This document shows positions 1,878 to 36,316 of a DNA stretch of 36,317 nt, in pieces; the stretch's first letter is position 1; each line of letters starts with the position of its first letter. The translations under genes were made by a program, and so were the position numbers. This DNA is from Acidimicrobiales bacterium (lineage in GTDB: Bacteria; Actinomycetota; Acidimicrobiia; Acidimicrobiales; RAAP-2): contig JADGOE010000030.1 in the NCBI GenBank assembly GCA_017883135.1, forward strand, positions 1-36,317, given 5' to 3'. The notes under the pieces are model-generated. The model was not told the DNA's origin and searched no databases. It saw only the letters and a list, made by a program, of their open reading frames with translations.

Positions 1878-2918
1878 TCAGCCGGCAGGAACGGCTTGGT
1901 CCGGCGTGCCTGCCCTGTCCCCGACCAGCGGGAAGTGGCAGGCCACCTGATGTCCGGGTGCAACCTCTCGCAGCGGGGGTTCTTCTTCACCGCAGAGCTG
2001 GGTTGCATAGGGGCACCGGGTACGGAACCGGCACCCTGAAGGAGGGTCGAGCGGGGAGGGGAGCTCTCCCGCCAGGGCCTTGTGGGTGGACACATGTTCG
2101 GGGTCGGGCTCGGGGATCGACGCCAACAGCGCCTCGGTATAGGGATGGGCGGCCGACCGGTACAAGTCGTCGGAACCGGCCAGCTCGACCAGCTTGCCCA
2201 GGTACATCACCGCCACCCGATCGCTCACGTTCTTGACGACGGCCAAGTCGTGGGCGATGAAGACCATGGTGAGGCCGAATCGGGCCTTGAGGTCCGCCAG
2301 CAGGTTGAGGATCTGAGCCTGCACCGAGACGTCGAGGGCCGACACCGGTTCGTCACAGATGAGCAGATCGGGATCGGCCATCAGGGCGCGGGCGATGCTG
2401 ATGCGCTGGCACTGGCCGCCGGAAAACTCCTGTGGCCGCCGGTCGCCTGCCGTGTCAGGGTCGATGCCGACTGCTTCGAGCATCGTGTGGACCCTTAGGG
2501 CCCGTTCGGCCTTGGTGCCCCGTCCCCAGATGACCAAGGGCTCTGCCACGATGTCCTTCACCCGCCGTCGGGGGTTGAGCGAGGAGATCGGGTCCTGGAA
2601 GATCATCTGGATCTTGGTCCTGACCTTGCGAAGCTGCCGGTGGGACAGCGCACCCAGGTTCTGGCCGAGGTAGTTGACGCTGCCGGACGTGGGTGGCTGT
2701 ACCTGAACCAGTGCCCGACCGGTGGTGGACTTTCCGCAGCCCGACTCACCGACCAGCCCAAGCGTCTCGCCTTTCCTGACCTGGAAGCTGATGTCCGACA
2801 CCGCCTGCACCCGCTGCTTGCCACTCCGGAACTCCACGACGAGGTGGTCCACGCTGAGGACTACGTCGGAGCCGGAAGTTCGCGGCTGGACAGTGCTGTC
2901 GGTCGTGACGCCGCTCAT
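1878..2918 (-). CDS. oppF: Oligopeptide/dipeptide ABC importer ATPase (OppF/DppF-like)
   Basis: Cytoplasmic ATPase subunit of a peptide-type ABC importer, 346 aa. Walker A is GESGCGKS (about 57-64), the signature is FSGGQCQR (165-172, with the Cys that OppF proteins often carry) and Walker B is LLICDEP (about 185-191). The C-terminal oligopeptide-transporter extension has the pattern CRFRTRCPYATQLC, a cysteine set characteristic of OppD/OppF-type subunits. The start is the ATG at 2916-2918, which overlaps the TGA of oppD (ATGA), so translation is probably coupled. A frame extending upstream to 3110 has no support. It is the last gene of the minus-strand operon. The substrate cannot be read from the sequence: di/oligopeptides are most likely, with other small solutes possible. 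Confidence 0.92.
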   Translation of the reverse strand: MSGVTTDSTVQPRTSGSDVVLSVDHLVVEFRSGKQRVQAVSDISFQVRKGETLGLVGESGCGKSTTGRALVQVQPPTSGSVNYLGQNLGALSHRQLRKVRTKIQMIFQDPISSLNPRRRVKDIVAEPLVIWGRGTKAERALRVHTMLEAVGIDPDTAGDRRPQEFSGGQCQRISIARALMADPDLLICDEPVSALDVSVQAQILNLLADLKARFGLTMVFIAHDLAVVKNVSDRVAVMYLGKLVELAGSDDLYRSAAHPYTEALLASIPEPDPEHVSTHKALAGELPSPLDPPSGCRFRTRCPYATQLCGEEEPPLREVAPGHQVACHFPLVGDRAGTPDQAVPAG

Positions 2919-4069
2919 GGTGACTGCACCTCTGCTCCGGGGTCTATGGCGGTATCGGCGGCGGATGTCGGCGGCGGAGCGCTGCTGGAACCGTTGCCCG
3001 ACGAAGGGGCCGGCGGAGCGGTCGAGGTGCCGTGGACGAGGGGGAACCAGCAGGCGAAGAGGTGATCGGGCGAACCCGCCGTACGGAGGGGTGGGTCCGA
3101 CTCGCGGCACTTGTCCTGGGCATAGGCGCAGCGAGGCGCGAACCGGCAGCCCTCGGGAGGATGGATCAGATCGGGTGGCCGCCCGGCGATGGCCTGCAGC
3201 CGGACACCACTGGGGTCGGACAGACGGGGGATCGAGTCCATCAGCGCCCGGGTGTAGGGCATGTGGGTGTTGGCGAACAACGTGTGGGTCGGTGCCCGTT
3301 CGACCACGCGACCCGCGTACATGACCACGATCTCGTCAGCTCGGTTGGCCACTACCCCGAGGTCGTGGGTGACCAGGATGACCGCCATGTGGCGTTCCCG
3401 CTGGAGCTCACCGAGCAGGTCGAGGATCTGCGCCTGGACGGTGACGTCGAGGCCGGTGGTCGGCTCGTCGGCCATCACCAGGCGTGGCGCACAGGCCAGG
3501 GCGATGGCGATCATCACCCGCTGGCGCATGCCTCCCGACAGTTGGAACGGATACCACCGCACCCGGTCCTCGGGGGAGGGGATGCCCACCGACCGCAGTA
3601 GCTCGACCGCGGTTGCGTCGGCCTCGGCGCGGTTCATGCCCAGGTGGAGACGGAGGGACTCGGTGATCTGCCTCCCGATCCGCTTCACCGGGTTGAGGGC
3701 CGTCATCGGATCTTGAAAGATCATGCTCAGTTCGGCGCCCCAGACCTGGCGGAGCTGTGCTGGCTCCAACGCGGTCAGGTCGTGACCGGCGAAGTGCACG
3801 GTACCGCTCTTGATCACATCGCGTGTCGGCAACAACCCCATGATCGACCGCGACAGCACGGTCTTGCCCGACCCTGACTCCCCGACGATTCCGAGGGTGG
3901 TCCCCGCTTTGACGGTCAGAGATACCCCGTCGACAGCGCGGACCGTACCCCTCCCGGTCCGGAAGGACGTATGTAGGTCGTCTACCACCAACAGCGGCTC
4001 GGTCGGATCCCCGATATCACGGAACTCGAAGACCGGCTTGGCGCCCTTCGTACCACGCCGGCCGATCAC
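2915..4069 (-). CDS. oppD: Oligopeptide/dipeptide ABC importer ATPase (OppD/DppD-like)
   Basis: Second nucleotide-binding subunit of the importer, 384 aa, expected to pair with the OppF-like protein. Walker A is GESGSGKT (63-70), the signature LSGGMRQR (177-184) and Walker B VMADEP (198-203), followed by TTGLDVT. The C-terminal OligoHPY region carries [14 protein letters not shown]. The last 40 or so residues are Pro/Ser/Ala-rich and variable. The start is GTG at 4067-4069, overlapping the oppC TGA as GTGA. Its own stop overlaps the oppF start. The two 4-bp overlaps suggest tightly coupled production of the ATPases with OppC. Confidence 0.93.
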
Positions 4070-5025
4070 AGGAGGCCTTCCCGGATGTCGAAGCGCAGAC
4101 GCATGCGGTCACCGATCAGGTTGATCGAGAGCAACAGGAGGAACATGGAGAAGGCAGGCCACAACATGATGTACGGGTTGATGCTGAGGTTGCCGTTCGC
4201 GGTGCCTTCGGCGATGAGGTTTCCCCACGACGGAGTAGGAAGTGCCACCGACAGCCCGAGGAATGCCAGAGACCCCTCGAGCACGATCACCCCGGCCACC
4301 GTGATCAGGCCGAACGTCACCGCCACCGGCACGACGTTGGGGAGAATCTCACGGAACAGGATCCGCGGGGTGATGGCACCCATGGTGCGGGCGGCGATGA
4401 CGAAGTCGCGGTTGGCGAAGGACAAGCTCGATGCCCTCACCACGCGGAACATCAAGGGGATGGTGCCCACGCCGATGATGATGGTGATCTTCAGGAGCGA
4501 CTGACCCCAGAATGCGACGATCGCGATGACTGCGACGATGGCCGGAAAGGCCAGGATCACGAAGGATCCTGCGTTGAGCATGGAATCGAGCGACCCGCCC
4601 TTGAACCCCGAGACCAGGCCCAGCGTGCCTCCGATCGCCATGCCGATCCCGACCGATGCGAACCCGACGATCAACGACACCCGAGCGCCGAAGATCAGGC
4701 GGCTCAACAGGTCCCGACCGAGGTCGTCGGTTCCGAGCAGGTGGTGGATGTTCGGCGGCGAGTTGATGGCCGAGTAGTTCTGGAAGTTGGGGTTCGGAAG
4801 CGGGAGCACCTGTGCGAGCACCGCCAGCACGACCACCAGACCGAGCCAGCCGATGGCGAACCAGAACAGGGCGCCCAGGGGCTTGGTGACCAGGATGTCG
4901 TCCGAACTGAGCATCCCGCTCTGGCGAGAGACGACCATCTCGTCAACGGCAGCCTGCCCGGGGATCCTGTCGGTGAGCAGCTGGGTCGAGGCACGGGTGT
5001 TGCCGAGCTCGCGGTCGTCAGGCAT
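4066..5025 (-). CDS. oppC: Peptide-type ABC importer permease (OppC/DppC-like)
   Basis: Inner-membrane permease, 319 aa, of the BPD_transp_1 family. A cytoplasmic N-terminus of about 50 residues precedes the first membrane span (about LFWFAIGWLGLVVVLAVLA). Next comes the hallmark HLLGTDDLGRDLLSRLIFGA, which identifies the OppC/DppC branch. The cytoplasmic coupling (EAA-type) loop is RDFVIAARTMGAITPRILFR, which would contact the ATPases. The ATG at 5023-5025 follows the oppB stop by 3 bases. It should form a heterodimeric pore with the OppB-like protein. Confidence 0.93.
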   Translation of the reverse strand: MPDDRELGNTRASTQLLTDRIPGQAAVDEMVVSRQSGMLSSDDILVTKPLGALFWFAIGWLGLVVVLAVLAQVLPLPNPNFQNYSAINSPPNIHHLLGTDDLGRDLLSRLIFGARVSLIVGFASVGIGMAIGGTLGLVSGFKGGSLDSMLNAGSFVILAFPAIVAVIAIVAFWGQSLLKITIIIGVGTIPLMFRVVRASSLSFANRDFVIAARTMGAITPRILFREILPNVVPVAVTFGLITVAGVIVLEGSLAFLGLSVALPTPSWGNLIAEGTANGNLSINPYIMLWPAFSMFLLLLSINLIGDRMRLRFDIREGLL

Positions 5026-5028
5026 CGG

Positions 5029-5973
5029 TCACTCCCGGATCACTCTCGGATCGACCACGGTGAACAGGAAGTCGACCACGAATTGCAAGAACACATAGGC
5101 GATGGCCACCACCAGCGAGATGCCCTGGACCACCAGGTAGTCCCGCTGCTGGACGGAGACCACCAACGAGTACCCGAGCCCGCTGATGGCGAACAGCCAC
5201 TCGACGATGAACGTACCGGCAAGCAGTGCACCGATATTGACGCCGGCAGCAGCGAGTAAGGAGAAGGTCGACGGTCGGAAGGCGTGGCGAAGCATGATCC
5301 GACGGTTGGACAGGCCCTTGGAGCGGGCCATGGTGATGAAGTCTTCCTGCAGGGTGCTGATCAGGTCCGACCGGAGCAGGCGGTAGTAGACGGCGATCGA
5401 TCCCGCGGTGATGGCCAGCGCGGGCAGGACCATGTCGTGGAGGTTGGCCGCCGGGTCCTTGGTGAACGGCACGTAGCCGGTGGCCGGAAACCAGTGCAGT
5501 CCCACCGCGAACACCGCCACCATGATCGGGGCGATCACGAAGGGTGGCATCGCCAACAGTCCGAAGGTGCCGGTGGAGGCGACGTTGTCGAGCGGGCGGT
5601 TGGGCCGCCGCGAGGTGACCAGTGCCAGCGGGATGGCCACGGCGAAGGCCACGATCTGCGACAGGACGATCAACTCGATGTCGATGGGTGCCCCGGTGGC
5701 CAGAATGTGGGTGACCGATTCGTGGTTGAGGTAGGACTGCCCGAGGTTTCCATGGAACACCGCGGTGAGCCAGATCGTGTACTGGTTCCACAGCGGCTTG
5801 TTCAGCCCGAGCTGGTGAAGAAGGATCGTCCGGTTCTGCGCAGTGTCGTTGGGTCCGAGGATGGTGACCGACGGATCACCCGGAAGCAGGTGGACCAGCA
5901 GGAAGACCAGCACCGAGATGATGAACGCCACCACCACCAACTGGATGAATCGTCTGATGAGGTACTTGGTCAT
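5029..5973 (-). CDS. oppB: Peptide-type ABC importer permease (OppB/DppB-like)
   Basis: Inner-membrane permease, 314 aa. It begins MTKYLIRRFIQ with a first span through FIISVLVFLLVHLLPGDP, the usual N-terminus of OppB/DppB proteins. The periplasmic segment holds LGLNKPLWNQY and GNLGQSY. The coupling loop is EDFITMARSKGLSNRRIMLR, and the protein ends in TVVDPRVIRE. The frame is open to 6150, but those extra 59 residues overlap the binding-protein gene and resemble no family. ATG 5971-5973 lies 35 bases downstream of the binding-protein stop. Confidence 0.93.
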   Translation of the reverse strand: MTKYLIRRFIQLVVVAFIISVLVFLLVHLLPGDPSVTILGPNDTAQNRTILLHQLGLNKPLWNQYTIWLTAVFHGNLGQSYLNHESVTHILATGAPIDIELIVLSQIVAFAVAIPLALVTSRRPNRPLDNVASTGTFGLLAMPPFVIAPIMVAVFAVGLHWFPATGYVPFTKDPAANLHDMVLPALAITAGSIAVYYRLLRSDLISTLQEDFITMARSKGLSNRRIMLRHAFRPSTFSLLAAAGVNIGALLAGTFIVEWLFAISGLGYSLVVSVQQRDYLVVQGISLVVAIAYVFLQFVVDFLFTVVDPRVIRE

Positions 5974-6008
5974 GGGAGATCGAGACGTGGGACCGGTTGC
6001 CCGACCCG

Positions 6009-7694
6009 CTATCCGGCCATCCAGATCTGCGTCGGGAAGAACTGGCCTTCGTTGAACGAGTAGCCCGGCGATCCGTCGGGGAGGGTGACGTTGTTGAAGT
6101 TCTGGACCCGGTTCTGCGCCACCTCCGAGAAGAGGTACTGCTCGATCCACAGGTAGGGCAGGTCCTGGGACAAGCGCTGGTTGACCTTCTGGTAGGAAGC
6201 CACCCTGGTCTGCTGATCCGTGGCGGCCCTGCCGGCCAGCATGGCGGTTTCGATCTGGGGGTCATCGAGCCGGGTGAAGTTGAGGCCGATCCCTCCAACC
6301 GGCGAGATGGTGGTCGTGCTCCACCACACGTAGTTGAGGTCGGGGTTGACGGTTCCGAACTGGTAGGACGTCGCCGCCTGGAACGAGCCGGTGACGAACT
6401 CGGTGATGATGCTCGCCTGCTGCACCGTCTTGACGCTGATGTCGAACCCGACCTGGTTCCACATCTGCTGGACGATCTGCACCAGCTGGGCCAGGCGCGG
6501 ATCGGTGATCGTGATCAGCTGGAGTGTCGGTGTGCCGTGCTGGGCCTTGTACTCGTTGACAAGGGCCTTTGCCTCGGCCGGATCGTAGGTGGGGTAGTCG
6601 GTCTTGCTGTAGTAGGGCGATCCGGGCAGGAAGAGCCCGTTGACCGGCTTGGCGAACCCACCGCCGAAGATCTTCTGGATCTGTGCGGTGTCCAGGCCCT
6701 TGGCCAGGGCTTGGCGGATCCGGAGGTCGTTGGTCGGGGCCACCGCGGTGTTCAACATGATGAAGCCCGTGGTCGGCTCGCCGATCACTCCGGTGCGGCT
6801 GTCGACCAGCTGGTAACCCGACTGCCCGGAGAAGCGGTTGATGGTGCCGGGGTCGGTCGATTCGATCATGTCGACCCCGCCGGTCTTAAGGGTGGCCTCG
6901 CGCTGGACGGTGTCGGGGATCGGCTTGAACGTGATCTGGTCGAGATAGGGGAGTCCGCTGCGCCAGTAGTGGGGGTTGCGGGTGGCGGTGAAATGGTCGT
7001 TGGGCTGCCACTCGGCGAAGATGAACGGCCCGGTACCCACCGGCTTGGGTGTCGTGCCCGGTATGGACGCCTGCTGGATCATCGCCTCACCCACCACGTA
7101 GCCGACCTGCGAGGTGAGTCCCGCGGGGAAGGTGGGGTTGGGCCCGGTCAGGGTGAACACCACGGTCATGGCGTCCGGCGTGGTGACCGAGGCCACCTGT
7201 TTGAGGGCCGTGCCGGTGAGCGGTGAGCCCCGCAGGGCGTCGAAGTTGGCCTTGACCACGGCAGAGGTGAGTGCCGACCCGTCGCTGAACTTCACACCCG
7301 GGCGGAGGGTCATGGTCCAGGCGTCATAGGTGGAGTTGCTGGATATCGACTGGGCCAGGTAGGGCTTGATGGTCCCGTCGGCCCCAACCGCCATCAACGG
7401 GTCGTAGACCGCGTTGGCGTAGAGGTACCCGTTGGTGTCCCAGTGGTTCATGGGCGGGTAGAACCCGTCGATCTCGGCCACGGTGCCGACGGTCAGCGAT
7501 CCTCCCCTCACCGGGGTGCCGGTACCCACGCCGGGCTTGGAGCCCGAGGCCGTCGTCGAACTCGACGATCCCGAGTTGCCGGTCGAGCAGCCGGCCAGGG
7601 CGGTGGAGGCAGCGGCACCGAGCACGACCGCGCCCCCGGTGACCGCACCGCGGGACAAGAACGTACGGCGGCTGATCTCGTTACCCGATGCCAC
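6009..7694 (-). CDS. Peptide-type ABC substrate-binding lipoprotein with Tat signal (SBP_bac_5)
   Basis: Extracellular binding protein of the importer, 561 aa, of the SBP_bac_5 (OppA/DppA) family. The N-terminus has a twin-arginine motif (SRRTFLSRG, Arg 9-10), a hydrophobic stretch and the lipobox LAGC with Cys36. It is therefore probably folded in the cytoplasm, exported by Tat and lipid-anchored. A Ser/Thr/Gly linker follows. Family hallmarks include GVKFSDGSALTS, the G(T)GPFIFAEW region and a C-terminal LPYLWIEQY. The start is GTG 7692-7694, preceded on the minus strand by GGGGGA about 7 bases away. It heads the five-gene operon. The ligand is unknown. Confidence 0.92.
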   Translation of the reverse strand: MASGNEISRRTFLSRGAVTGGAVVLGAAASTALAGCSTGNSGSSSSTTASGSKPGVGTGTPVRGGSLTVGTVAEIDGFYPPMNHWDTNGYLYANAVYDPLMAVGADGTIKPYLAQSISSNSTYDAWTMTLRPGVKFSDGSALTSAVVKANFDALRGSPLTGTALKQVASVTTPDAMTVVFTLTGPNPTFPAGLTSQVGYVVGEAMIQQASIPGTTPKPVGTGPFIFAEWQPNDHFTATRNPHYWRSGLPYLDQITFKPIPDTVQREATLKTGGVDMIESTDPGTINRFSGQSGYQLVDSRTGVIGEPTTGFIMLNTAVAPTNDLRIRQALAKGLDTAQIQKIFGGGFAKPVNGLFLPGSPYYSKTDYPTYDPAEAKALVNEYKAQHGTPTLQLITITDPRLAQLVQIVQQMWNQVGFDISVKTVQQASIITEFVTGSFQAATSYQFGTVNPDLNYVWWSTTTISPVGGIGLNFTRLDDPQIETAMLAGRAATDQQTRVASYQKVNQRLSQDLPYLWIEQYLFSEVAQNRVQNFNNVTLPDGSPGYSFNEGQFFPTQIWMAG

Positions 7695-14397: not shown

Positions 14398-17300
14398 TCA
14401 TCGGGCCTCGGAGACCGCCCCACTCGCTGTTCGGCGCTGCGATCGGCGCCGCTGGACCACCTCGACGACAGCGTCGGCTCCGAGGAAGACCACCCCTGCC
14501 CACGCCCACTTGCCGGCCGAGCCGAAGGAGACCGGCCACGCCCCGTCGGCGGGCAGGTGGAACTGGCCCTGATGGACCGCGGTGTAGGCGCCGGCGGCCA
14601 CGATGCTGGCAATGGCGATGAGGCCGAGCACGACACGCAGCCGCGGCACGAGGAGCACCACCGCTGTGGCGATCCCGACGGCGCCACCCGCGACCGGCGC
14701 GGCGATGGCACCCGCGACCGCACCGGTGAGCACGCCGGTGAGCAGGGCCACCCAGATCGGTGCCCGGGGCCCCTCGGGGCGGAAGGGCATGACCAGCGTC
14801 GGGGCCCTGCTGTCAGCCCGCTCGGGGATGCCAGCCTCCTTCTCCTCCTCCTCTTCCAAGGGGACCCCGACCGTGGCGGCGCCCACTGGGCCCGCGGCAC
14901 GTGCGGTCGTGCCGTGGCGTCCCGGTCTGCGCCGGCGCCGGCGGCGCGGGACGAAGGCCAGGACCAGGCAGCCGATGATGGCCACGGTGGAGATGACCAG
15001 TGCGACGTCCACCCGCCTCTGTGGCTCCCACCGCAGCACCACCGAAACAGCTCCGCCGTGTACGGCGCCACCCATGGTGGCCGGGTCGAGCCTCCACCCG
15101 TTGGCGAACCCGTCGATCAGCACCGGATGGCCCAGGCCGGCACCACCGCTAACCGTGGCCATCCACCCGGCGTTGATGCTCTCACCCAGGATCAGGTTGG
15201 CCGGGATGGCCTGGGCACCCGACCCCATGCCGGTGACCGACAGGTGGACGGTGGTGGGCGTCGATGAGTCGACGCGGACGGTGGGTGCTGCGGCTACGGG
15301 TGGCGCGGCCAGCGCGGTGGCCGAGGCCAATGGCTTGGGACCGCCGCCCGGGGCCGAGTCGAGGGCCAACTGGTCGATGTCGAACCCGCTGATCTGCCCG
15401 ACGGCGGAGCGCAGCGTGTGCTGCCCGGGCCCGAGCGCCAGACCATTGGCATCGGGACCGCACAGCGACACCGTCAGTGCCCTGCGGTCCAGCGCCGTGG
15501 CGGTGGAGCCGGTGATGGAGATCCAGAGCGGTCCACCGTCGACCGTCACCAGGTCGCCGCGACACGAGGTGGGGATGTCGGCCGGCAGTGCTGCTGCCCG
15601 TAGGCCGGGTATCCCGACCTCGGCGATGCCGATGGGCATGGCGATCGGAGTCTTCGAGCGGTAGTTAGGCGTGTTCTCGACCCGGACGGCGTCGAACTCG
15701 ATCTGGATGCTCTCGCCGCGCAGGGGTGCGAAGGAGACCGGCACGTCGACCACCGCGCCCGGGGTGTGGCTGTCGGCAATGGGCGGCAGCGAGACGGTTG
15801 CCTTGCCGCTGCCGGTCGAGATGGTGACCCGGGTGGGCACCGAGTGCTGCCCATCGGCAACCACCTGCAGGTCCACGCGGTCGAAGGTGATCGGCCTGGG
15901 CAGGTTGTAGTGCAGCCACTGCCCGGCCTGGTGGGCCACGCCGAAGCCCGGCTCCCACAGGGTGGTCGGGTCGCCGTCGACGGTGGCGATGGCTCCCGCC
16001 CGGAGGTCCCCGGGAAGCCGACCCTGTGAGTAGGCGACGATCCCGGTGTGGTTGGACCCCGGTCGCCCAACCAGCCGGTCGATCTGGTCGTCGGGGATGA
16101 GTGCCGAGATGCGCGCGGCACCGGTCAGGGAGAAGGTTCGCTGGGTGGGGAGCCAGAACGTCCGGGCCAGCGAGGTCTCGATGTCGGCCCGAGGCGGGGT
16201 TCCCGAGGAACGCAACCGGGTCATGATCAGGCTGACCCGGTCGACCAGCGAGGACGGTCCCGACGCCCGCAGCAGGTCCTCGGGCATGGCGATGGACTCG
16301 TTGACCGAAACTCCGGGGATCTCCACCTCGGCAAAGCCCACTGAGCTCCGCGAGCCCATCGGAACCCGCGGATCGGCGACGGCGACCCCGCTCACGGTGA
16401 TGCGCAGGGTGGTGAAGGTGCGCGTCGGGAACGTCACGCCTTGGCCGGTCGGCGTCCGCGATGCCGGACCGAGCGGAACGGTGATCGGGTGCCCACCATC
16501 GAAGGTCAGGGTCGCCGAGGTGATCCATCGATCGGGATCTCCGGTCTGGGGCTGGACCAGGGTGATGGAGCTCTCGGTGATCGGCTTGAGCAACACCACC
16601 TGCCACCACTGTCCGAGCTGCTGGGCGAAGGAGTCGGTCAGCCAGGGTGTCTGGGTGCTGCCGTCGAGGGCGGCCGGCGGGCGATCCTCGGGCAGGTAGG
16701 TGATGGAGGAACCGTAGGAGGAAGCGGTCACCGACGACACCCCGGCCAGAACGGAAGTGGTCTGGGCGTCAGCCGGGGCCCCGGGGAACAGGTTGATCGG
16801 CGCATCGCTCGGGTCCAAGGTGTTCGGCGGCTGGGTTGCCGTCTCGGTGTAGCCGGTGTTTTCGTTCAGCGAGTTCCACCGGAAGCCCTGCTTGCGATTG
16901 GTGTCGGTCACCACCAGGGTGGCCGGCTTCGTCAACGTCTGCTTCAGCAGTGCGGGGTGGGTGTCGAGTGTGCCCGCATACAGAACGGTCGGGTTGTTCT
17001 GCAACAACCCGACCGACGCGGCGTTGACGATGCCAGAGCCATCCCCGTCCACCACCAGGGGGGCCACGGTGGTCTCGGCCCGCGCGATCGGCCGGGGGTT
17101 GTTCACCGTGTAGGAGACCAGCGGGGCCGGCCAGGTCGAGTTGGGTGGCCGGGTCAGGGTGGCCTCGTCGAAATGGGGGATGAGGGGGACGTTGGGTCGG
17201 GGCGTCCCGTAGGGGACCGGATCGGACAGCCCGGGGGGGGTCACGGCGAGATCGGCCGCCACCTGTTGGGGGATCGGTACGTCGTAGCGCTCGTAGGCCT

Positions 17301-18966
17301 GGTCGTACTGGACCAGGACGTCCCCCGCACTCAGGAGGGACGACATCGGCCCGAGGGAACTCCAGTCCATGGTGCCGTCCTGCAGCGGTGAGTCGAGGGC
17401 CTGCAGTAGGTCGGCGGTGGCCAGTGAACCCATGATCTGCTGCTCGTGGGTCACGAAGGGCCGGGTCATCAGGCCCGGATAGACGGTGTCGATGGTGTCC
17501 CCCCACCGGTAGGCAGCAAAGTTGTTGCCGGGCAGTGCGTACACCCGGGTGCCCGGGTGGGTGGTGGCCAATGCGGTCGCGGCCTGTCGCACGTAGGCCG
17601 GCGGCACCGCCGGTTGGGTGAAGCCGTTGGCGATGACCGCCCCGGTCCACAGGGGGGTGGACGCGGCTGCGATGGCTGCGACCGCAAACCCGCCGACGAC
17701 CAGGCCGGTCCGACGCACCCGGTAGCTGAGGGCGCTGATACCGGCACCGAGGAACATGGCCAGGCTGAGGATGATGACCGGAGACGCCCGGTCGGTGGAC
17801 CGCATGGCCAGACCGGCCGTGGTGTCCACCATGATCGCCTTGAGGACCGATCCGACGCCGGACGGATGGCCGTAGGGGTTGGGACCTACCGCCAACACCA
17901 TGCCCACGACGGTGATCAGCACGAAGTAGGAGCGGTACCGCCAGCGGGAGAAGAAGGCGGCGGCGAAGGCCAGCACCGGGACGACGAAGCTCAGGTCGAT
18001 CAGGCGGAGGTTCTGGGTGTACGCGACGGAGGCCTGCGTCCAACTCCCCACCCGGTCGGACCCGTAGAAGTACCAGTACCCGAGCCCACGGATGATCTCC
18101 GAGGCCAGCGATGCCCCGCTGGTGGCCGGTACCGTCTCGGTGTACTTGAGGACATTGACCCCGTAGGCGGCCTCGACCTGCAGCCCGATGGCCCACCACA
18201 GGGAGACCACGGCGGTGAGGCCTCCGATCTTCCACGCCACGCCCCAGGCTTGGCGCCAGGTCGACTCCTTGGCCACCAGCACCGAGTAGGGGAGCCACAG
18301 CGCCGGGGCGATGCCCACGTAGAGGATCGAACTGGCATTGATGCCACTGACCAGGGCCACCACCAGGGCGAAGAGCGCCGGGTACTTCCAACCCCCTCGC
18401 CGCAGCGCCAGGATCACGAAAGCGACCATCCAGGGCAGTCCCGCCCATGGCATCAAGATGACCGAGATCCGCCCCGTGTACTGCAGCACGTAGGGCGTGA
18501 ACATGAACCCGACGGCGGTGATGTAGCGGCCGGGTCCGGTCAGTCCGATGGTCCGGCACAGGTAGAGGGCACCGGCGCCCGCGGCGAACAACAGGGTGCC
18601 CATCCACAGCCGTTGCGCGACCCACAGGGGCACGTGGAGCTCGGCCAGCACCCAGTAGAACGGCCCCATGGGCAGCAGGTACCCGATGTTCTCGTGGGTG
18701 ACCGTGCCCAACCCGACGCTGGGATCCCACAGCGACACCGCTTGACGCAGGTAGCGGCCCGGATCGAGATACAGGTACGTCTTGGTGTCGTCGGTCACCG
18801 TCCCCGGGCGGGATGCCACCATCGGCAGGAAGGCGAGCAGGGCGAGTACCGAGTAGTCGACCACCGCCCGGAGCCGGCCGGCTTCCCGCAGGGGCGCGTG
18901 GGCGGATCCGTCCGGGCCCGAGGCCCGGCCCGGGGGCGCGACTGAGGAAGGTTGGGGATCCGACAC
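14398..18966 (-). CDS. aftD: AftD-like arabinofuranosyltransferase-family membrane protein (DUF3367)
   Basis: Very large GT-C membrane protein, 1522 aa. Mycobacterial AftD, about 1400 aa, adds alpha-arabinofuranose from decaprenyl-phosphate-arabinose to arabinan. Early landmarks fit the family: a first span at about 37-51, DDTKTYLYLDP (59-69, with the GT-C acidic residues) and HENIGYLLPMGPFYW (91-105). About ten further spans reach residue 480 or so. A long extracytoplasmic part holds two discoidin/carbohydrate-binding-like modules at about 735-860 and 970-1100. A late span (about 1318-1338) is followed by RRRRRRRPGRHG, a glutamate run, two more spans and WAWAGVVFLGADAVVEVVQR. The start is GTG 18966 (VSDPQP); the open frame to 19164 overlaps the divergent gene. 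Donor and acceptor in this organism are unknown. Confidence 0.82.
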   Translation of the reverse strand: MSDPQPSSVAPPGRASGPDGSAHAPLREAGRLRAVVDYSVLALLAFLPMVASRPGTVTDDTKTYLYLDPGRYLRQAVSLWDPSVGLGTVTHENIGYLLPMGPFYWVLAELHVPLWVAQRLWMGTLLFAAGAGALYLCRTIGLTGPGRYITAVGFMFTPYVLQYTGRISVILMPWAGLPWMVAFVILALRRGGWKYPALFALVVALVSGINASSILYVGIAPALWLPYSVLVAKESTWRQAWGVAWKIGGLTAVVSLWWAIGLQVEAAYGVNVLKYTETVPATSGASLASEIIRGLGYWYFYGSDRVGSWTQASVAYTQNLRLIDLSFVVPVLAFAAAFFSRWRYRSYFVLITVVGMVLAVGPNPYGHPSGVGSVLKAIMVDTTAGLAMRSTDRASPVIILSLAMFLGAGISALSYRVRRTGLVVGGFAVAAIAAASTPLWTGAVIANGFTQPAVPPAYVRQAATALATTHPGTRVYALPGNNFAAYRWGDTIDTVYPGLMTRPFVTHEQQIMGSLATADLLQALDSPLQDGTMDWSSLGPMSSLLSAGDVLVQYDQAYERYDVPIPQQVAADLAVTPPGLSDPVPYGTPRPNVPLIPHFDEATLTRPPNSTWPAPLVSYTVNNPRPIARAETTVAPLVVDGDGSGIVNAASVGLLQNNPTVLYAGTLDTHPALLKQTLTKPATLVVTDTNRKQGFRWNSLNENTGYTETATQPPNTLDPSDAPINLFPGAPADAQTTSVLAGVSSVTASSYGSSITYLPEDRPPAALDGSTQTPWLTDSFAQQLGQWWQVVLLKPITESSITLVQPQTGDPDRWITSATLTFDGGHPITVPLGPASRTPTGQGVTFPTRTFTTLRITVSGVAVADPRVPMGSRSSVGFAEVEIPGVSVNESIAMPEDLLRASGPSSLVDRVSLIMTRLRSSGTPPRADIETSLARTFWLPTQRTFSLTGAARISALIPDDQIDRLVGRPGSNHTGIVAYSQGRLPGDLRAGAIATVDGDPTTLWEPGFGVAHQAGQWLHYNLPRPITFDRVDLQVVADGQHSVPTRVTISTGSGKATVSLPPIADSHTPGAVVDVPVSFAPLRGESIQIEFDAVRVENTPNYRSKTPIAMPIGIAEVGIPGLRAAALPADIPTSCRGDLVTVDGGPLWISITGSTATALDRRALTVSLCGPDANGLALGPGQHTLRSAVGQISGFDIDQLALDSAPGGGPKPLASATALAAPPVAAAPTVRVDSSTPTTVHLSVTGMGSGAQAIPANLILGESINAGWMATVSGGAGLGHPVLIDGFANGWRLDPATMGGAVHGGAVSVVLRWEPQRRVDVALVISTVAIIGCLVLAFVPRRRRRRRPGRHGTTARAAGPVGAATVGVPLEEEEEKEAGIPERADSRAPTLVMPFRPEGPRAPIWVALLTGVLTGAVAGAIAAPVAGGAVGIATAVVLLVPRLRVVLGLIAIASIVAAGAYTAVHQGQFHLPADGAWPVSFGSAGKWAWAGVVFLGADAVVEVVQRRRSQRRTASGAVSEAR

Positions 18967-18977
18967 GAGTGATCGGT

Positions 18978-19008
18978 AGTGTAAACAACCGACGGGTCGG
19001 GATGTCAC
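18978..19008 (-). promoter_or_regulatory. Candidate promoter for the aftD-like gene
   Basis: Read on the minus strand, GTGACA (19003-19008) matches the -35 consensus at five of six positions. TACACT (18978-18983) fits the -10 pattern, with a 19-base spacer. Transcription would start only a few bases before GTG 18966, giving a near-leaderless mRNA. The site lies in the 91-bp gap shared with the divergent methyltransferase gene. Confidence 0.45.
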
Positions 19009-19057
19009 CACTCCTGGCCAGGTTGGCAACGCACGAGGCCAGGTACAGGGGAGCCAG

Positions 19058-19915
19058 ATGAGCGAGAGCAGTTCCGGAACAGGATCGTCGGGCGGTCCGG
19101 CCGTGGTCGGGCGGGAGCGGTCCGGCAAGCGTCTCACCGGGGAGCGACCCATGGAGGGCGTCACCCCCGACTCGCTGCTGGCACTCCACGCGGCCGGCTA
19201 CCGGACGGTCATCGAGCGACTGGGCAAGGGCACGATGCTCGACGTCGGCTGCGGACAGGGGTTCGAGTCGGCCCGGTTCCTCGCCGGCGACCGGGTGGTG
19301 ATCGGCGCCGACTACAGCGCCGACGCCGTGGAGGCCGCCCGCCACCGGTGGGGTCCCTCGGGGCTCCAGGTGGCCCAGATGAACGCGTTGTCCCTGGGGT
19401 TCGCCCAGGGCAGCTTCGACTGGGCGTGCTCGTCCCACCTGATCGAGCACTTCGACGATCCCGAAGGACACGTGAAGGAGCTGTCCCGGGTGCTGTCGGA
19501 CCAGGGCACCGCCTTCTTCCTCACCCCGAACGCCCCGGCCGACTTCGAGAATCCCTTCCATATCCACCTCTTCGAGCCTCCCGAGCTCCGCGACCTCCTC
19601 GGGCGGCACTTCCACGACGTCACCGTCCAGGGCCTCGATGCCGTGCCCCACGTGAAGGCCGACTTCACCGCCCGCCGAGTCAAGGCCAACAAGGTCCTCA
19701 AGCTCGATATCCTCGACTTGAGGCACCGGATTCCGCGGTCGTGGTACATCGGGATCTACACCCGAGCCCTCCCCCTGGCCTACAAGGTCATCGCCCGGGG
19801 CGACTCGGGGGGCATGACCGGCATCACCGCCGACGACTTCTTCGTCACCGACGATCTGGACCGCACCACCATGGTCCTCTTCGCCACCGCCTCGCGACCC
19901 CGTCGACCGGCCTGA
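19058..19915 (+). CDS. Class I SAM-dependent methyltransferase
   Basis: Cytoplasmic methyltransferase of the Methyltransf_11/UbiE-like type, 285 aa. After a disordered Ser/Gly-rich N-terminus, motif I is LDVGCGQGFE (61-70) and the acidic end of beta-2 is GADYS (83-87). Motif IV is SSHLIEHFDDPEGHVKELSR (about 126-145). Then come FFLTPNAPADFENPFHIHLF and a C-terminal segment whose target cannot be named. ATG 19058 is preceded by AGGGGAG about 4-5 bases away. The gene diverges from the aftD-like gene and runs 12 bases ahead of coaE. The neighbourhood suggests methylation of a glycan or lipid carrier. In M. tuberculosis a methyltransferase gene (Rv0224c) also lies in the same broad region as aftD (Rv0236c), which is suggestive only. 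Confidence 0.8.
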   Translation: MSESSSGTGSSGGPAVVGRERSGKRLTGERPMEGVTPDSLLALHAAGYRTVIERLGKGTMLDVGCGQGFESARFLAGDRVVIGADYSADAVEAARHRWGPSGLQVAQMNALSLGFAQGSFDWACSSHLIEHFDDPEGHVKELSRVLSDQGTAFFLTPNAPADFENPFHIHLFEPPELRDLLGRHFHDVTVQGLDAVPHVKADFTARRVKANKVLKLDILDLRHRIPRSWYIGIYTRALPLAYKVIARGDSGGMTGITADDFFVTDDLDRTTMVLFATASRPRRPA

Positions 19916-30965: not shown

Positions 30966-32000
<1,035 letters not shown>

Positions 32001-32044: not shown

Positions 32045-33262
32045 ATGGGCGATGGTGGGGAGAATCCGTTACTGAGGGGGCTGCCGTTGCTCGGCGACCT
32101 TCCTGATCTCGACGGGGCCAGTGTGCTGGTGCGAGTCGACTTCAACGTCCCGTTGCGTCCCTGCGCAGGCGAGGCCTCGACGGTCATCGACGACTTCCGG
32201 ATCCGGGCAGCGCTCCCCACCCTCGACTACCTGCTCGGCCGTGGGGCGCGGGTCACCGCCTGCACCCATCTGGGACGGCCCAAGGGTGCGGCGGACGTGC
32301 GCTGGGAGCTCGGTCCCGTTCGTGAGGACCTCGCACGGCTGGCCCCCCGGGTCGAGTTGCTGGAGAACCTCAGGTTCGACCCGGGCGAGGAGCGCAACGA
32401 CCCGTCCTTTGTCGAGAAGCTGGTCAATGGCCACGATGCCTACGTGAACGATGCGTTCGGAGTGTCGCACCGTCGACATGCCTCGGTGGTCGGCCCTCCC
32501 ACCCAGCTGCCGAGCGCCGCCGGGCTGTTGCTCCAACGGGAGATCGAGGCCCTGGGCGGGCTCCTCGGTGCACCGGCTCGGCCGTTCGTCGCAGTGGTCG
32601 GGGGCGCCAAGGTCGCGGACAAGCTCGGGGTTCTCAAGGCGCTCCTCAGCCAGGTGGACGCCCTGATCGTGGGCGGTGGCATGGCCTTCACCTTTCTGGC
32701 TGCCGCGGGCCACGACGTCGGGGGTTCGATGGTCGATCCGGACAGGATCGACGAGTGTGCGGAGCTCCTCGAGTCCGGCACGCCCATCTTGTTGCCGACG
32801 GACATCGTTGTGCTCGAGCCCGGTGCACCCTTCGGCTGCGACTGCCGGGACGGACAGGTCCGGACGATCGGGGCCGACGTTCCCGATGGATGGCAGGGCT
32901 TGGACATCGGCCCGGACTCGGTTGCTGCGTACACGCGCCGGATCGCCACCGCAGGGACAGTCCTGTGGAACGGTCCGATGGGCGTCTTCGAGGACGCGAG
33001 ATTCAGTGCGGGAACCGCAGGGGTTGCACGTGCGGTGGCGGACTGTCCCGGTTTCACCGTCGTCGGCGGGGGAGACAGCGTCGCTGCGATCGACGAACTG
33101 GGCCTGGCCGATCGGATCAACTTCATCTCTACCGGGGGTGGCGCCTCGCTCGAACTGCTCGAATACGGCGATCTGCCAGGTCTGGCAGCACTCAGAGGCG
33201 CGGTGAATGCGCCCCGGGGCAACGGCGACGGCGACGGCCGCCTGGGCGCATCACAACGGTGA
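32045..33262 (+). CDS. pgk: Phosphoglycerate kinase
   Basis: Transfers phosphate from 1,3-bisphosphoglycerate to ADP; 405 aa. Substrate-site residues appear in VRVDFNVPL (29-37), THLGRPKG and NLRFDPGEERND. AYVNDAFGVSHRRHAS is a slight variant of the usual VNDAFG-AHRAHAS. The nucleotide-binding half has GGAKVADKLGVL, GGGMAFTFL, VLWNGPMGVFE and VGGGDSVAA. I chose ATG 32045 because GGGGAGGAG ends 5 bases before it; ATG 32027 is a less likely in-frame alternative. The tail has a Gly/Asp run (GNGDGDG). The stop overlaps the tpiA GTG (GTGA), so translation of the next enzyme is coupled. Confidence 0.96.
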   Translation: MGDGGENPLLRGLPLLGDLPDLDGASVLVRVDFNVPLRPCAGEASTVIDDFRIRAALPTLDYLLGRGARVTACTHLGRPKGAADVRWELGPVREDLARLAPRVELLENLRFDPGEERNDPSFVEKLVNGHDAYVNDAFGVSHRRHASVVGPPTQLPSAAGLLLQREIEALGGLLGAPARPFVAVVGGAKVADKLGVLKALLSQVDALIVGGGMAFTFLAAAGHDVGGSMVDPDRIDECAELLESGTPILLPTDIVVLEPGAPFGCDCRDGQVRTIGADVPDGWQGLDIGPDSVAAYTRRIATAGTVLWNGPMGVFEDARFSAGTAGVARAVADCPGFTVVGGGDSVAAIDELGLADRINFISTGGGASLELLEYGDLPGLAALRGAVNAPRGNGDGDGRLGASQR

Positions 33263-34056
33263 CCGACGCCGGCTCCAAGCGGCGACCGCTGGTCAGCGGC
33301 AATTGGAAGATGAACTTCGATCATCTCCAAGCCATTCACGCGGCGCGTGACCTCGGTCTCCGCGTGCAGCCTGCGGACGCCGGCCCAGTAGACATTTCGG
33401 TGCACCCGCCGTTCACCGATCTGCGTTCAGTGCAGTCCGTGATCGAGGGTGAAGGCCTGCCGATCGCACTCGGGGCCCAGAACTGCGCGGTGGAGGACTC
33501 AGGCGCCTTCACTGGAGAGGTCAGTGCAGCCATGTTGGCCAAGCTGCACGTCGAGTACGTCATCGTGGGCCACTCGGAGCGTCGCCAGCTGTTTGGAGAG
33601 TCCGACGAGGTGGTGGCAGCAAAGCTGAAGGCGGTCCTGCGTAACGGGATGACCCCCATCTTCTGCGTGGGTGAGACCGTCGACGAACGAGAGGTAGGTC
33701 TGACCAGGGATCGGCTGGCCAGCCAGGTCGAACATGGGTTGGGGGCGGTCCCCCAGGGGGCCGTGGCGACCATGGTCATCGCCTATGAGCCGGTGTGGGC
33801 GATCGGAACCGGGCAGCCAGCCACCCCCGAGGACGCCCAAGAGGCCTGTTCGTGGATCCGTGAGGTGGTCGCTCGCTCGGTCGGAGCGGACCCAGCCGGC
33901 CAGGTGCGGATCCAATACGGTGGTTCGGTGAACGCCGACAACACCGAGCCCCTGCTTCGCTGTGCCGATGTCGACGGCGTCCTCGTGGGAGGCGCCAGCC
34001 TCGATGCGGCTGCGTTCGTAGGCATCGTCCGGGCCGCCGCCATCGCGACCCGCTGA
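33259..34056 (+). CDS. tpiA: Triosephosphate isomerase
   Basis: Interconverts dihydroxyacetone phosphate and glyceraldehyde-3-phosphate; 265 aa, TIM barrel. Catalytic residues are seen in SGNWKMN (Asn15, Lys17), VIVGHSERR (His105) and AYEPVWAIGTG (Glu177). The phosphate-binding end has IQYGGSVNADN and GVLVGGASLDAAAF. The start is GTG 33259, four bases overlapping the pgk stop. The longer open frame from 32755 runs inside pgk and is not real. Confidence 0.97.
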   Translation: MTDAGSKRRPLVSGNWKMNFDHLQAIHAARDLGLRVQPADAGPVDISVHPPFTDLRSVQSVIEGEGLPIALGAQNCAVEDSGAFTGEVSAAMLAKLHVEYVIVGHSERRQLFGESDEVVAAKLKAVLRNGMTPIFCVGETVDEREVGLTRDRLASQVEHGLGAVPQGAVATMVIAYEPVWAIGTGQPATPEDAQEACSWIREVVARSVGADPAGQVRIQYGGSVNADNTEPLLRCADVDGVLVGGASLDAAAFVGIVRAAAIATR

Positions 34057-34102: not shown

Positions 34103-34333
34103 GTGCTGACCGCAGTCATTGTCGTTCTACAGGTGTTGGCATGCCTCGCGCTGATCTTCCTCATCCTCATGCACAGCGGCAAGGGTGGCGGGCTGTCCGA
34201 CATGTTCGGCGGCTCAGTCGGCTCGGCCGCCGCCGGCTCGACGGTGGTAGAGAAGAACCTGGACCGGATCACCGTCACCGTCGCAGTGATCTTCGCCTTC
34301 ACGAATCTGATCCTCATCCTGCGCCTGCAGTGA
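34103..34333 (+). CDS. secG: Preprotein translocase subunit SecG
   Basis: Small inner-membrane subunit of the Sec translocon, 76 aa. Two spans are visible, VIVVLQVLACLALIFLILM (5-23) and ITVTVAVIFAFTNLILIL (about 56-73). They are joined by the conserved HSGKGGGLSDMFGG and a small-residue loop. The start is GTG 34103. Placement after tpiA is usual in bacteria. Its stop overlaps the GTG of the following binding-protein-like gene (GTGA). Confidence 0.95.
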   Translation: MLTAVIVVLQVLACLALIFLILMHSGKGGGLSDMFGGSVGSAAAGSTVVEKNLDRITVTVAVIFAFTNLILILRLQ

Positions 34334-36120
34334 CCGATACCGGCGGCGAGCGCGTCAAGCGCCGCCCCCGCATCTCACTGCGCTGGCGCGAGTACCGGGC
34401 CCGGTGGACCCTTCCGCTGGTCATCATCGTCATCATCGGGGCGGTCGCCATCGTCGATCACCTCGGATCCCACCGGATCAGCCAGGTCGACCAAGTGGCG
34501 CCCCCGGCCCTCGTTGCGACGACCGGAGGAACGGCAGCCGTCAACGTCGACCGGTCATGGTACGGGTTCAATCCCAATACCCCTGCAGGGGCATCATCGG
34601 CAACGCCCATGCTGCTCACCTCGGTGCTGCCCAGCGCATACATCATCTCCCCCAAGCTGGTACCCCAGGTGAACAGCGACCTGCTGGTGAGTGTGGAGGC
34701 CACGTCGACCTCGCCGCTGACCATCCAGTACGTGATCGATCCCCACGCGGTGTGGTCTGACGGCGTACCGGTCAGTGCGGACGACTTCATCTATGCCTGG
34801 CAGTCGCAGCGAGGGAGCGGGGTGGACGTCGACGGACAGCCGGACCAGGTCGCCTCGACGCTCGGCTACCGGAACGTGGCCTCGGTCGTCGCCAGCCACG
34901 GCAGAAAGACGGTGACAGTGGTGTTCAACACGCCCTTCACCGATTGGCGGGCGATGTTCGACCACATGGTTCCGGCCCACATCGCCAAACGGGTGGGTTG
35001 GAACACCGGGTTCGATACCTTCACCCCCTCGATCGACCTCTCGGCGGGGCCGATGATCGTGCAGTCGGTCACGGGTGGAACCGAGGCGGTGTTGGTCCGG
35101 AACCCCAGCTGGTGGGGGACGCCCAGCGTGCTGAACCGGGTGGTCGTCTCGGTGGCATCGGCGCCATCCACCTGGATCGGTGCACTGGCCGGGAGCAACC
35201 ATGCCGTTGCCCAGCCGGCGACGTTCAACCTGGAGGCACTGAACGCAGTGTCGTCGTTGCCGAACACCCAGAGCTCGGTCAAGCCGTCACTGAACTTCCT
35301 CCAGGTGGAGTTCAATGTGAAATCGACGGTGACCGCCAAGGCCGCAATGCGTGAGGCGATCGCTCATTCCCTCGACCGACCCGCGCTCCTCGCCAGGACC
35401 TTCGCTCCCATCGAACCGGACCTGCTGGTCAGCCAAGACCACTTGGCTGCGCCATCGCAACCGAGCTACAGCCCGTCATCGGCGTCCGGCGAGTATCTGT
35501 CCGCCGATCCTGCGAGCACCGACCGGCTGCTCAAGAGCCTCGGGTTCCATCAGGACCAATCGGGGATCTACATCGATGCCGACGGGAAGCCGCTGACCCT
35601 CCGGATGGCCGTCGAAACGGGCGATCCCTGGGCCGCCAGGGTCGCCACGGCGATCAGCTCCCAGCTGCACGGTGCGGGTATGTCGGTCGTGACGATACCG
35701 GTGGCAGGGTCGGCGGGCCTGGCCGCCGCGGCAGCGGCCAACTTGTACGACATGGCCCTGGTCACCCGGGTCTCCAGCCCGTTCCAGACCGTGACGGAGC
35801 CGTGGTACTCGGATGGCCAAGGGCCCGCAGGTTCCGGTGGCTCGCAGGACTGGAGCAAGTTCGACGACCCCCAGGTCGACCAGCTCTTCCTACAGGCCGC
35901 CCAGGCCTTGAATCCGGTGTCGGGAAGTGCCATCTACGCTCAGATCGACGACCAGCTGTGGGATCAGATGGTTGCCCTGCCCTTGTTCGGGGAGCCGGCA
36001 CTGATCGCCAACGGCGTGCAGATCGACAATGCGCTGTACAACCCTTCGGTGGACGGAATCCTCTGGAACGTGGCCCTCTGGGCGACCCTCAAACCCGGCC
36101 CGAAGGCTGGGCAGGCATAA
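34330..36120 (+). CDS. Membrane-anchored SBP_bac_5 family protein, LpqW-like
   Basis: Extracytoplasmic protein, 596 aa, with the peptide-binding-protein (SBP_bac_5) fold. WSDGVPVSADDFIYAW, TPFTDWRAMFDHMVPAHIAK and AMREAIAHSLDRPALL are family landmarks. Residues 1-26 are basic and cytoplasmic; one span (about WTLPLVIIVIIGAVAIVDHL) follows. I find no cysteine anywhere, so there is no lipobox and the protein is probably anchored by its N-terminus. No permease or ATPase gene accompanies it. Mycobacterial LpqW has this fold and acts in lipomannan/lipoarabinomannan synthesis rather than uptake, so an envelope-glycan role is plausible. An orphan peptide-binding protein is the alternative. GTG 34330 overlaps the secG stop; the longer open frame from 34141 lies inside secG. 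Confidence 0.8.
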   Translation: MTDTGGERVKRRPRISLRWREYRARWTLPLVIIVIIGAVAIVDHLGSHRISQVDQVAPPALVATTGGTAAVNVDRSWYGFNPNTPAGASSATPMLLTSVLPSAYIISPKLVPQVNSDLLVSVEATSTSPLTIQYVIDPHAVWSDGVPVSADDFIYAWQSQRGSGVDVDGQPDQVASTLGYRNVASVVASHGRKTVTVVFNTPFTDWRAMFDHMVPAHIAKRVGWNTGFDTFTPSIDLSAGPMIVQSVTGGTEAVLVRNPSWWGTPSVLNRVVVSVASAPSTWIGALAGSNHAVAQPATFNLEALNAVSSLPNTQSSVKPSLNFLQVEFNVKSTVTAKAAMREAIAHSLDRPALLARTFAPIEPDLLVSQDHLAAPSQPSYSPSSASGEYLSADPASTDRLLKSLGFHQDQSGIYIDADGKPLTLRMAVETGDPWAARVATAISSQLHGAGMSVVTIPVAGSAGLAAAAAANLYDMALVTRVSSPFQTVTEPWYSDGQGPAGSGGSQDWSKFDDPQVDQLFLQAAQALNPVSGSAIYAQIDDQLWDQMVALPLFGEPALIANGVQIDNALYNPSVDGILWNVALWATLKPGPKAGQA

Positions 36121-36229: not shown

Positions 36230-36316
36230 GTCGGAGTGGCGGAATAGGCAGACGCGCTAGCTTGAGGGGCTAGTGCCCGAAAGGGCGTGGGGGTTCAAGT
36301 CCCCCCTCCGACACCA
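36230..36316 (+). tRNA. tRNA-Leu (anticodon GAG)
   Basis: Complete 87-nt class II tRNA. The acceptor stem GTCGGAG (36230-36236) pairs with CTCCGAC (36306-36312), followed by discriminator A and an encoded CCA. The D-arm is GCG/CGC. The anticodon arm is CTAGC-TTGAGGG-GCTAG with anticodon GAG at 36264-36266, reading CUC and CUU. The long variable arm is GCCC-GAAA-GGGC. The T-arm is GGGGG-TTCAAGT-CCCCC. All stems pair perfectly. Confidence 0.97.

Follow-up and report, generated by a model that had tools for sequence, protein, structure and literature searches.

An orphan OppA-type binding protein gene overlapping secG in Acidimicrobiales appears to be left over from an oppABCDF operon

Among described proteins, the points of comparison for the SBP_bac_5-type binding protein (SBP) considered here are EppA, LpqW and the OppA of Mycobacterium tuberculosis, Rv1280c. 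EppA is described in PMC7312458 as the EDTA-binding protein of an ABC-type EDTA uptake system. LpqW is presented in PMC12421883 as a lipoprotein with one disulfide that is essential in M. tuberculosis, and is reported to channel AcPIM4 to lipomannan synthesis (PMC3229680, PMC8972800). For the arrangement that is the subject of this report, a linkage of secG with oppA in Acidimicrobiia, we found no description in the titles and opening lines of abstracts of the literature searched.

We analysed a stretch of 36,317 nucleotides (the window) from an Acidimicrobiales bacterium, in which an OppA-type gene follows uvrC, rapZ, a cofD/yvcK-like gene, gap, pgk, tpi and secG. The features of this locus are:

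30978–32000, forward strand: gap, conserved neighbour upstream
32045–33262, forward strand: pgk, conserved neighbour upstream (start set by eye)
33259–34056, forward strand: tpi, conserved neighbour upstream (start set by eye)
34103–34333, forward strand: secG, SecYEG translocon subunit, 76 aa (PF03840, E 8.9e-18)
34330–36120, forward strand: orphan SBP_bac_5 (OppA-type) gene, GTG start, 596 aa, no Cys
34330–34333, forward strand: GTGA, the SBP start codon lying over the secG stop (TGA at 34331–34333), with 4 nt in common
36230–36316, forward strand: tRNA-Leu(GAG), which in relatives borders the former opp slot on its downstream side

Transport receptors of the OppA/DppA type in Gram-positive bacteria usually carry a lipobox cysteine. 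An earlier note on this DNA had described a cysteine-free SBP_bac_5 protein that has no lipobox, stands without a permease or ATPase and overlaps the secG stop codon, and each of these statements was borne out. The product matches SBP_bac_5 in Pfam (E 1.7e-33; 116.7 bits against a cut-off of 32.4), its 596 residues include no cysteine, and a lipobox is missing from it as from all 19 members of its clade (hereafter the window clade). One cysteine occurs in 3 of these 19 members, hence the clade is not wholly cysteine-free. In a lipoprotein sister group (L022, L025, L029, L031, L032 and others) we observed two conserved domain cysteines, a disulfide-like pair, which align with F80 and approximately F228 of the window protein; the window clade has neither.

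Because only 197 nt follow the SBP stop before the window ends at the tRNA-Leu gene, the statement that no permease or ATPase accompanies the SBP is based on a search of the genome (G000). PF00496 has two matches there, the orphan SBP and the SBP of a second operon; the single PF19300 (OppB-type permease) match and both PF08352 (oligo_HPY ATPase) matches also sit in this operon, approximately 27 kb from the orphan SBP:

1878–7694, reverse strand: ABC transporter operon of Dpp/Nik type, with genes for two ATPases and two permeases and an SBP of its own

This operon is complete, had been passed over in the earlier note, and is the one candidate of Opp type that we found in G000 for a partnership in trans. 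Across the ten loci compared, each protein neighbour downstream of the SBP recurred in two other loci at most.

The origin of the locus became apparent from relatives. The survey covered the window's genome and 60 relatives, 61 in all, and the SBP was matched in 50 of them; relatives with a name belong to Acidimicrobiaceae/Acidimicrobiales or are other actinobacterial MAGs. At 29 of 30 loci retrieved (window locus included), tblastn showed secG close upstream of the SBP gene, the exception being L028, where an opp operon sits between tpi and secG. An intact order of tpi, secG, SBP, oppB, oppC, oppD and oppF is found at six loci (L058, L133, L134, L135, L137 and L141). L142 and L101 have the order tpi, SBP, oppBCDF, secG, as does L060 but with a longer gap; on the cut contig L063 the order is SBP, oppBCDF, secG. 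Related arrangements occur in other families of the phylum (L191, L194, L197 and L210; oppB of L197 was unmatched). At L142, L101, L060, L063 and L210 the opp operon precedes secG, so either the operon or secG has moved. At L133, tandem SBP-like ORFs stand between secG and oppB.

In all seven intact loci with enough downstream sequence (L058, G039, G043, G045, G049, G050 and G054), a same-strand tRNA-Leu(GAG) gene follows oppF at a distance of 1.4–6.1 kb; none was seen in the available stretches of L060, L063, L101, L194 and L197. The same tRNA gene is no more than 0.4 kb from the SBP in the window and in 26 of the 29 distinct orphan loci examined; of the other three, it is 2.1 kb off in L155 and was not found in L143/L049 and L050. 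This tRNA gene is a handy marker of the secG–SBP slot.

No oppBCDF genes were found beside the SBP at the orphan loci, many of whose contigs end soon after the SBP. Among the approximately 20 distinct orphan loci listed with at least 4 kb of downstream sequence (5 of the window clade, 15 others), only L150 has ATPase matches, which are weak (182–1608, roughly 3 kb on) and may be remnants or unrelated genes. A partial ABC-ATPase match at L064 (8839–9006), approximately 1 kb past the SBP at a contig end with 1.25 kb downstream, may likewise be a remnant or unrelated. The permease and ATPase genes have thus apparently disappeared from a fixed slot in which the SBP was kept. From these gene orders, the linkage with secG appears to be old, and oppBCDF appears to be gone from the window branch with only the SBP left in the slot.

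The overlap with secG has a narrower distribution than the adjacency. It is present at all 19 window-clade loci (window included) and at 24 of 33 other orphan loci, once as TTGA, which amounts to 43 of 52 orphan loci versus none of 14 outside the orphan branch (it is missing from all 8 intact loci with secG upstream and from all 6 loci of a distant family whose loci look orphan); these counts come from related loci and are not independent events, and a script took the first start codon from the secG stop onwards as the SBP start, so that individual calls may err. Chance overlap is ruled out by the same comparison. The GTG start of the window gene is supported by the conserved N-terminus of the window clade. 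No obvious Shine-Dalgarno sequence was seen by eye upstream of it. Most simply, the overlap would be derived and younger than the adjacency of secG and the SBP gene, and we infer that translation of the SBP is coupled to that of secG. Coupling to a Sec subunit had been called unusual, and so it is, but the adjacency itself has a plain origin in a full opp operon beside secG. The six loci of the distant family, f48 (L192, L193, L195, L196, L202 and L203), have secG and then the SBP with no opp genes matched nearby; the four aligned members keep a cleft tryptophan discussed below, and the family represents a second, separate orphan-looking state.

The confinement of the 4-nt overlap to the branch without an importer could also be read as a sign that the SBP is a folding helper associated with Sec, its peptide cleft serving as a chaperone site for polypeptides leaving the translocon, and PMC7442780 reports chaperone-like behaviour of an OppA. 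We consider this very unlikely: the adjacency to secG need not mean a Sec function, because it was inherited from the opp operon beside secG.

Sequence comparison supports purifying selection on the orphan SBP. A rough dN/dS was 0.18–0.27 for the SBP versus 0.01–0.09 for SecG, the SBP dS being 0.7–1.2 and so near or above 1 in most pairs; among GapA rows only L153 and L033 were usable in this comparison, and the remainder, being fragments, were left out. The rough ratio rules out a pseudogene relic. An ordinary orphan of one genome was ruled out as well, the gene being conserved across the family. As for a viral origin, three stretches in viral contigs fit a pattern, and none was confirmed as a relative.

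The N-terminus of the window protein, RW-TLPLVIIVIIGAVAIV-DH, contains a hydrophobic stretch:

34402–34464, forward strand: hydrophobic N-terminal segment, residues 25–45, predicted to be a signal anchor and conserved across the clade

Mean pairwise identity within the clade is 73% over this segment versus 57.5% for the domain, and 9% of domain windows equal it in conservation. W26, L28, P29, D43 and H44 are among the residues invariant in the N-terminus of the clade. Most other orphans have a lipobox, and by eye approximately 9 of 33 have neither a lipobox nor such a segment. The conservation of residues 25–45 favours a specific membrane anchor, which agrees with the membrane anchoring proposed in the earlier note as far as the conserved hydrophobic segment goes; anchoring is nevertheless a prediction, as A-V-A (38–40) is a possible signal peptidase I site with cleavage after A40.

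An SBP without neighbouring permease genes may still be a transport receptor, handing its ligand to a permease whose gene lies elsewhere, here in the Dpp/Nik operon at 1878–7694. There is a precedent for delivery in trans in E. coli, where MppA uses OppBCDF. The Dpp/Nik operon of the window is complete, and PF19300 was found in 58 of the 61 genomes, the window's included, making use in trans possible in most. This operon has its own SBP, however, and the three genomes that lack a PF19300 match (G015, G021 and G026) retain the orphan gene: each has one PF00496 match, which is the secG-linked gene (loci L152, L124 and L145). PF08352 also gave no match in these three, and was present in 4 of 4 other genomes checked (seven searched). 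The three do have other BPD_transp_1 permeases; PF12911 was uninformative as a check for OppC, missing even the Dpp/Nik operon of the window. Persistence of this branch of SBPs without an importer is thus supported, and the evidence for persistence without an Opp importer in three relatives is strong but not final, because the genomes concerned are drafts, 91–95% complete; a congener of G015, G034, has an OppB-type permease.

Changes in the binding cleft bear on the same question. The alignment covered 19 proteins of the window clade, 33 further orphans and, from operons, 14 proteins linked to secG/tpi and 20 others; L044 was left out as a duplicate. One column stands out:

35767–35769, forward strand: codon of Arg480, a column with Trp in operon proteins and Arg in the window clade

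Tryptophan occupies this column in 29 of 34 transport-linked (operon) proteins versus none of the 52 orphans, and arginine is found in 19 of 19 window-clade members and 7 of 33 other orphans. The tryptophan is kept in LpqW (5/5), in the distant orphan-looking family (4/4), and in Rv1280c and its M. aurum homologue; EppA, a transport protein, has phenylalanine. Taking 21 EppA cleft positions from PMC7312458, we found that, of the 16 domain columns that operon proteins conserve and orphans have lost, 4 fall among them (p 0.003), as do 4 of the 9 domain columns specific to the window clade (A88, S90, P93 and R480; p 2.5e-4), in tests with cut-offs of our own setting that ignore kinship and omit column 44 and eight N-terminal columns. 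Conservation of the cleft positions overall in the window clade is not higher than that of the rest of the protein (0.68 versus 0.70). The conserved Arg480 suggests an anionic ligand.

These losses, which include several residues near-invariant in transport-linked relatives, speak against delivery in trans. The aspartate that anchors the peptide amino group in E. coli DppA, D436 as described in PMC12136057, is absent from the window protein but also from nearly all of its transport-linked relatives, and the alignment is uncertain at such distance.

The fold itself is that of a complete, ordinary SBP, as delivery in trans would have it. An alignment-based model (pLDDT 90.5, pTM 0.84) has the full-length two-lobed SBP fold; a single-sequence model gave a pLDDT of 34.5 and was set aside. 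EppA, the transport protein, tops both the sequence and the fold matches: it is the best hit in a sequence search of solved proteins (E 4.5e-45), superposes on the model with TM 0.81/0.90, comes first in Foldseek, ahead of LpqW and then M. tuberculosis OppA, and has the highest VIA Z (40.5, versus 36.3 for M. tuberculosis OppA). With the permease-less genomes and the altered residues set against these matches, we judge delivery to a permease in trans unlikely.

The other described role for such a fold is that of LpqW, and the window protein could be its functional counterpart, directing, on the outer face of the membrane, how phosphatidylinositol mannosides or lipoglycans are assembled. LpqW is second by Foldseek and, in sequence, within the top three of the solved proteins, but by VIA Z it ranks 16th (Z 32.8, rmsd 5.5), behind EppA, M. 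tuberculosis OppA and several transport SBPs. In a careful tree of 51 proteins, the orphans and LpqW form one clade (19 rows, 93/99; 18 rows, 100/99), outside which fall the Rv1280c OppA, Streptomyces-like proteins and EppA; this tree holds 51 of 77 rows, 26 having been dropped (three far outgroups, fast-evolving rows and near-duplicates) after the quick 77-row tree had been seen. Quick trees also placed LpqW with the orphans, save one 77-row quick tree with LpqW at the base. On the 77-row set, a tree constrained to hold orphans and LpqW together was 18.2 log units above the free quick tree (p-AU 0.8). LpqW further has the orphan-branch states 432D and 478V and has lost R435, but retains the operon-type residue at 4 of the 16 lost columns, the cleft tryptophan among them. 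In AU tests, neither a clade of orphans that excludes LpqW (p 0.231) nor a tree with LpqW joined to the Rv1280c group (p 0.345; 6.1 log units) was rejected.

Because the AU tests reject no alternative placement and the branch of LpqW is long (approximately 1.5), a grouping of LpqW with the orphan branch is favoured by sequence but not established, and the same is true of calling this branch LpqW-like rather than transport. The earlier note's LpqW-like assignment thus fared well in the careful and constrained trees, where the SBP is nearer to LpqW than to OppA/DppA, and less well in the AU tests, the one quick tree and the retained tryptophan. Placement among transport-linked OppA proteins together with conserved backbone-binding residues, which it had named as the contrary outcome, is not what we found.

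The proposed link to glycan assembly concerned a module that includes the following gene, 15.2 kb from the orphan SBP:

14398–19164, reverse strand: AftD-like GT-C protein (PF11847, E 3.5e-73)

AftD is present in 35 of 37 orphan genomes versus 15 of 24 without the orphan (Fisher p 0.004, kinship ignored; the list of 37 was drawn up by hand, and G046, one of the 15, falls below the cut-off), and is missing from the orphan genomes G027 and G032. Confounded by kinship and with these two exceptions, this association gives a weak link for the suggestion that the SBP works with the AftD-like gene. A PatA-like acyltransferase family, in keeping with an LpqW-like role, was matched in 58 of 61 genomes, strongly in 56 and weakly in G005 and G012, but at 36 of 37 orphan genomes versus 22 of 24 others its co-occurrence is uninformative. 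Both families are too widespread to discriminate, and across the 61 genomes neither ties the orphan SBP to a glycan pathway. As LpqW is, moreover, a lipoprotein with a disulfide according to PMC12421883 and the window protein has no cysteine, we regard a functional counterpart of LpqW as possible but doubtful.

The reading we prefer, and hold to be probable though by a fair distance not secure, is that a former OppA was cut loose from its importer and put to a new use, as a stand-alone, anchored binding protein outside the cytoplasm. An oppABCDF operon would have stood beside secG and upstream of tRNA-Leu(GAG); oppBCDF would have been lost in the orphan branch while the binding protein stayed; the stranded SBP would then have become translationally coupled to secG, residues in its cleft would have changed and, in the window clade, the lipid anchor would have been swapped for the conserved hydrophobic N-terminal segment. 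Operon loss, the overlap, the changes at cleft positions, purifying selection and persistence without a detected Opp permease are the parts that sequence supports. On the outer face of the membrane, the SBP would close on its ligand and touch a membrane or envelope partner, feeding no ABC importer; here we infer the anchored topology, the coupling of translation, the type of ligand, the partner and a regulator-like action. Counted against repurposing are the OppB-type permeases in 58 of 61 genomes, the draft state of the three genomes without one and the permease of the congener G034, the absence of the tryptophan from EppA, the lipobox in many orphans, the ATPase matches at L064 and L150, and the unremarkable conservation of the cleft.

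A bolder and rather speculative extension is that LpqW and the window protein are two descendants of one SBP that escaped from a secG-side oppABCDF operon, the Acidimicrobiales member having remained at the ancestral position, made in step with SecG and bearing an arginine in a cleft remodelled for an envelope ligand, as an export-coupled envelope regulator. If the tie to LpqW is true, it would provide an origin for a protein reported in PMC12421883 to be essential in M. tuberculosis, as well as a simpler relative in which to search for the ligand. Under the preferred reading of a repurposed OppA, one genomic slot would form a stepwise record in which a receptor loses its importer, couples to a secretion gene and changes its pocket and, by prediction, its anchor.

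Compared with known systems, the window protein shares its fold with M. tuberculosis OppA Rv1280c (8j5q–8j5u) at approximately 23% identity, but Rv1280c was solved within OppABCD, falls in a separate clade and keeps the cleft tryptophan. EppA (6wm6) is the best match in sequence and fold, yet it is described in PMC7312458 as part of ABC-type EDTA uptake and, unlike the window protein, stands among transport-linked proteins in the trees. LpqW (2grv of M. smegmatis; the M. aurum homologue at L117) likewise belongs to SBP_bac_5, and in the loci examined no opp genes were seen next to it. It differs in having no secG match in those loci, in keeping the cleft tryptophan where the window protein has Arg480, and in being, by the account in PMC12421883, a lipoprotein with a disulfide where the window protein has no cysteine. 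Finally, the secG-linked oppABCDF operons of relatives (L058, L133–L135, L137 and L141) differ from the window locus in their lipobox-bearing SBP, their full permease and ATPase set and their lack of the 4-nt overlap, but have in common with it the slot that runs from tpi and secG through the SBP gene to tRNA-Leu(GAG).
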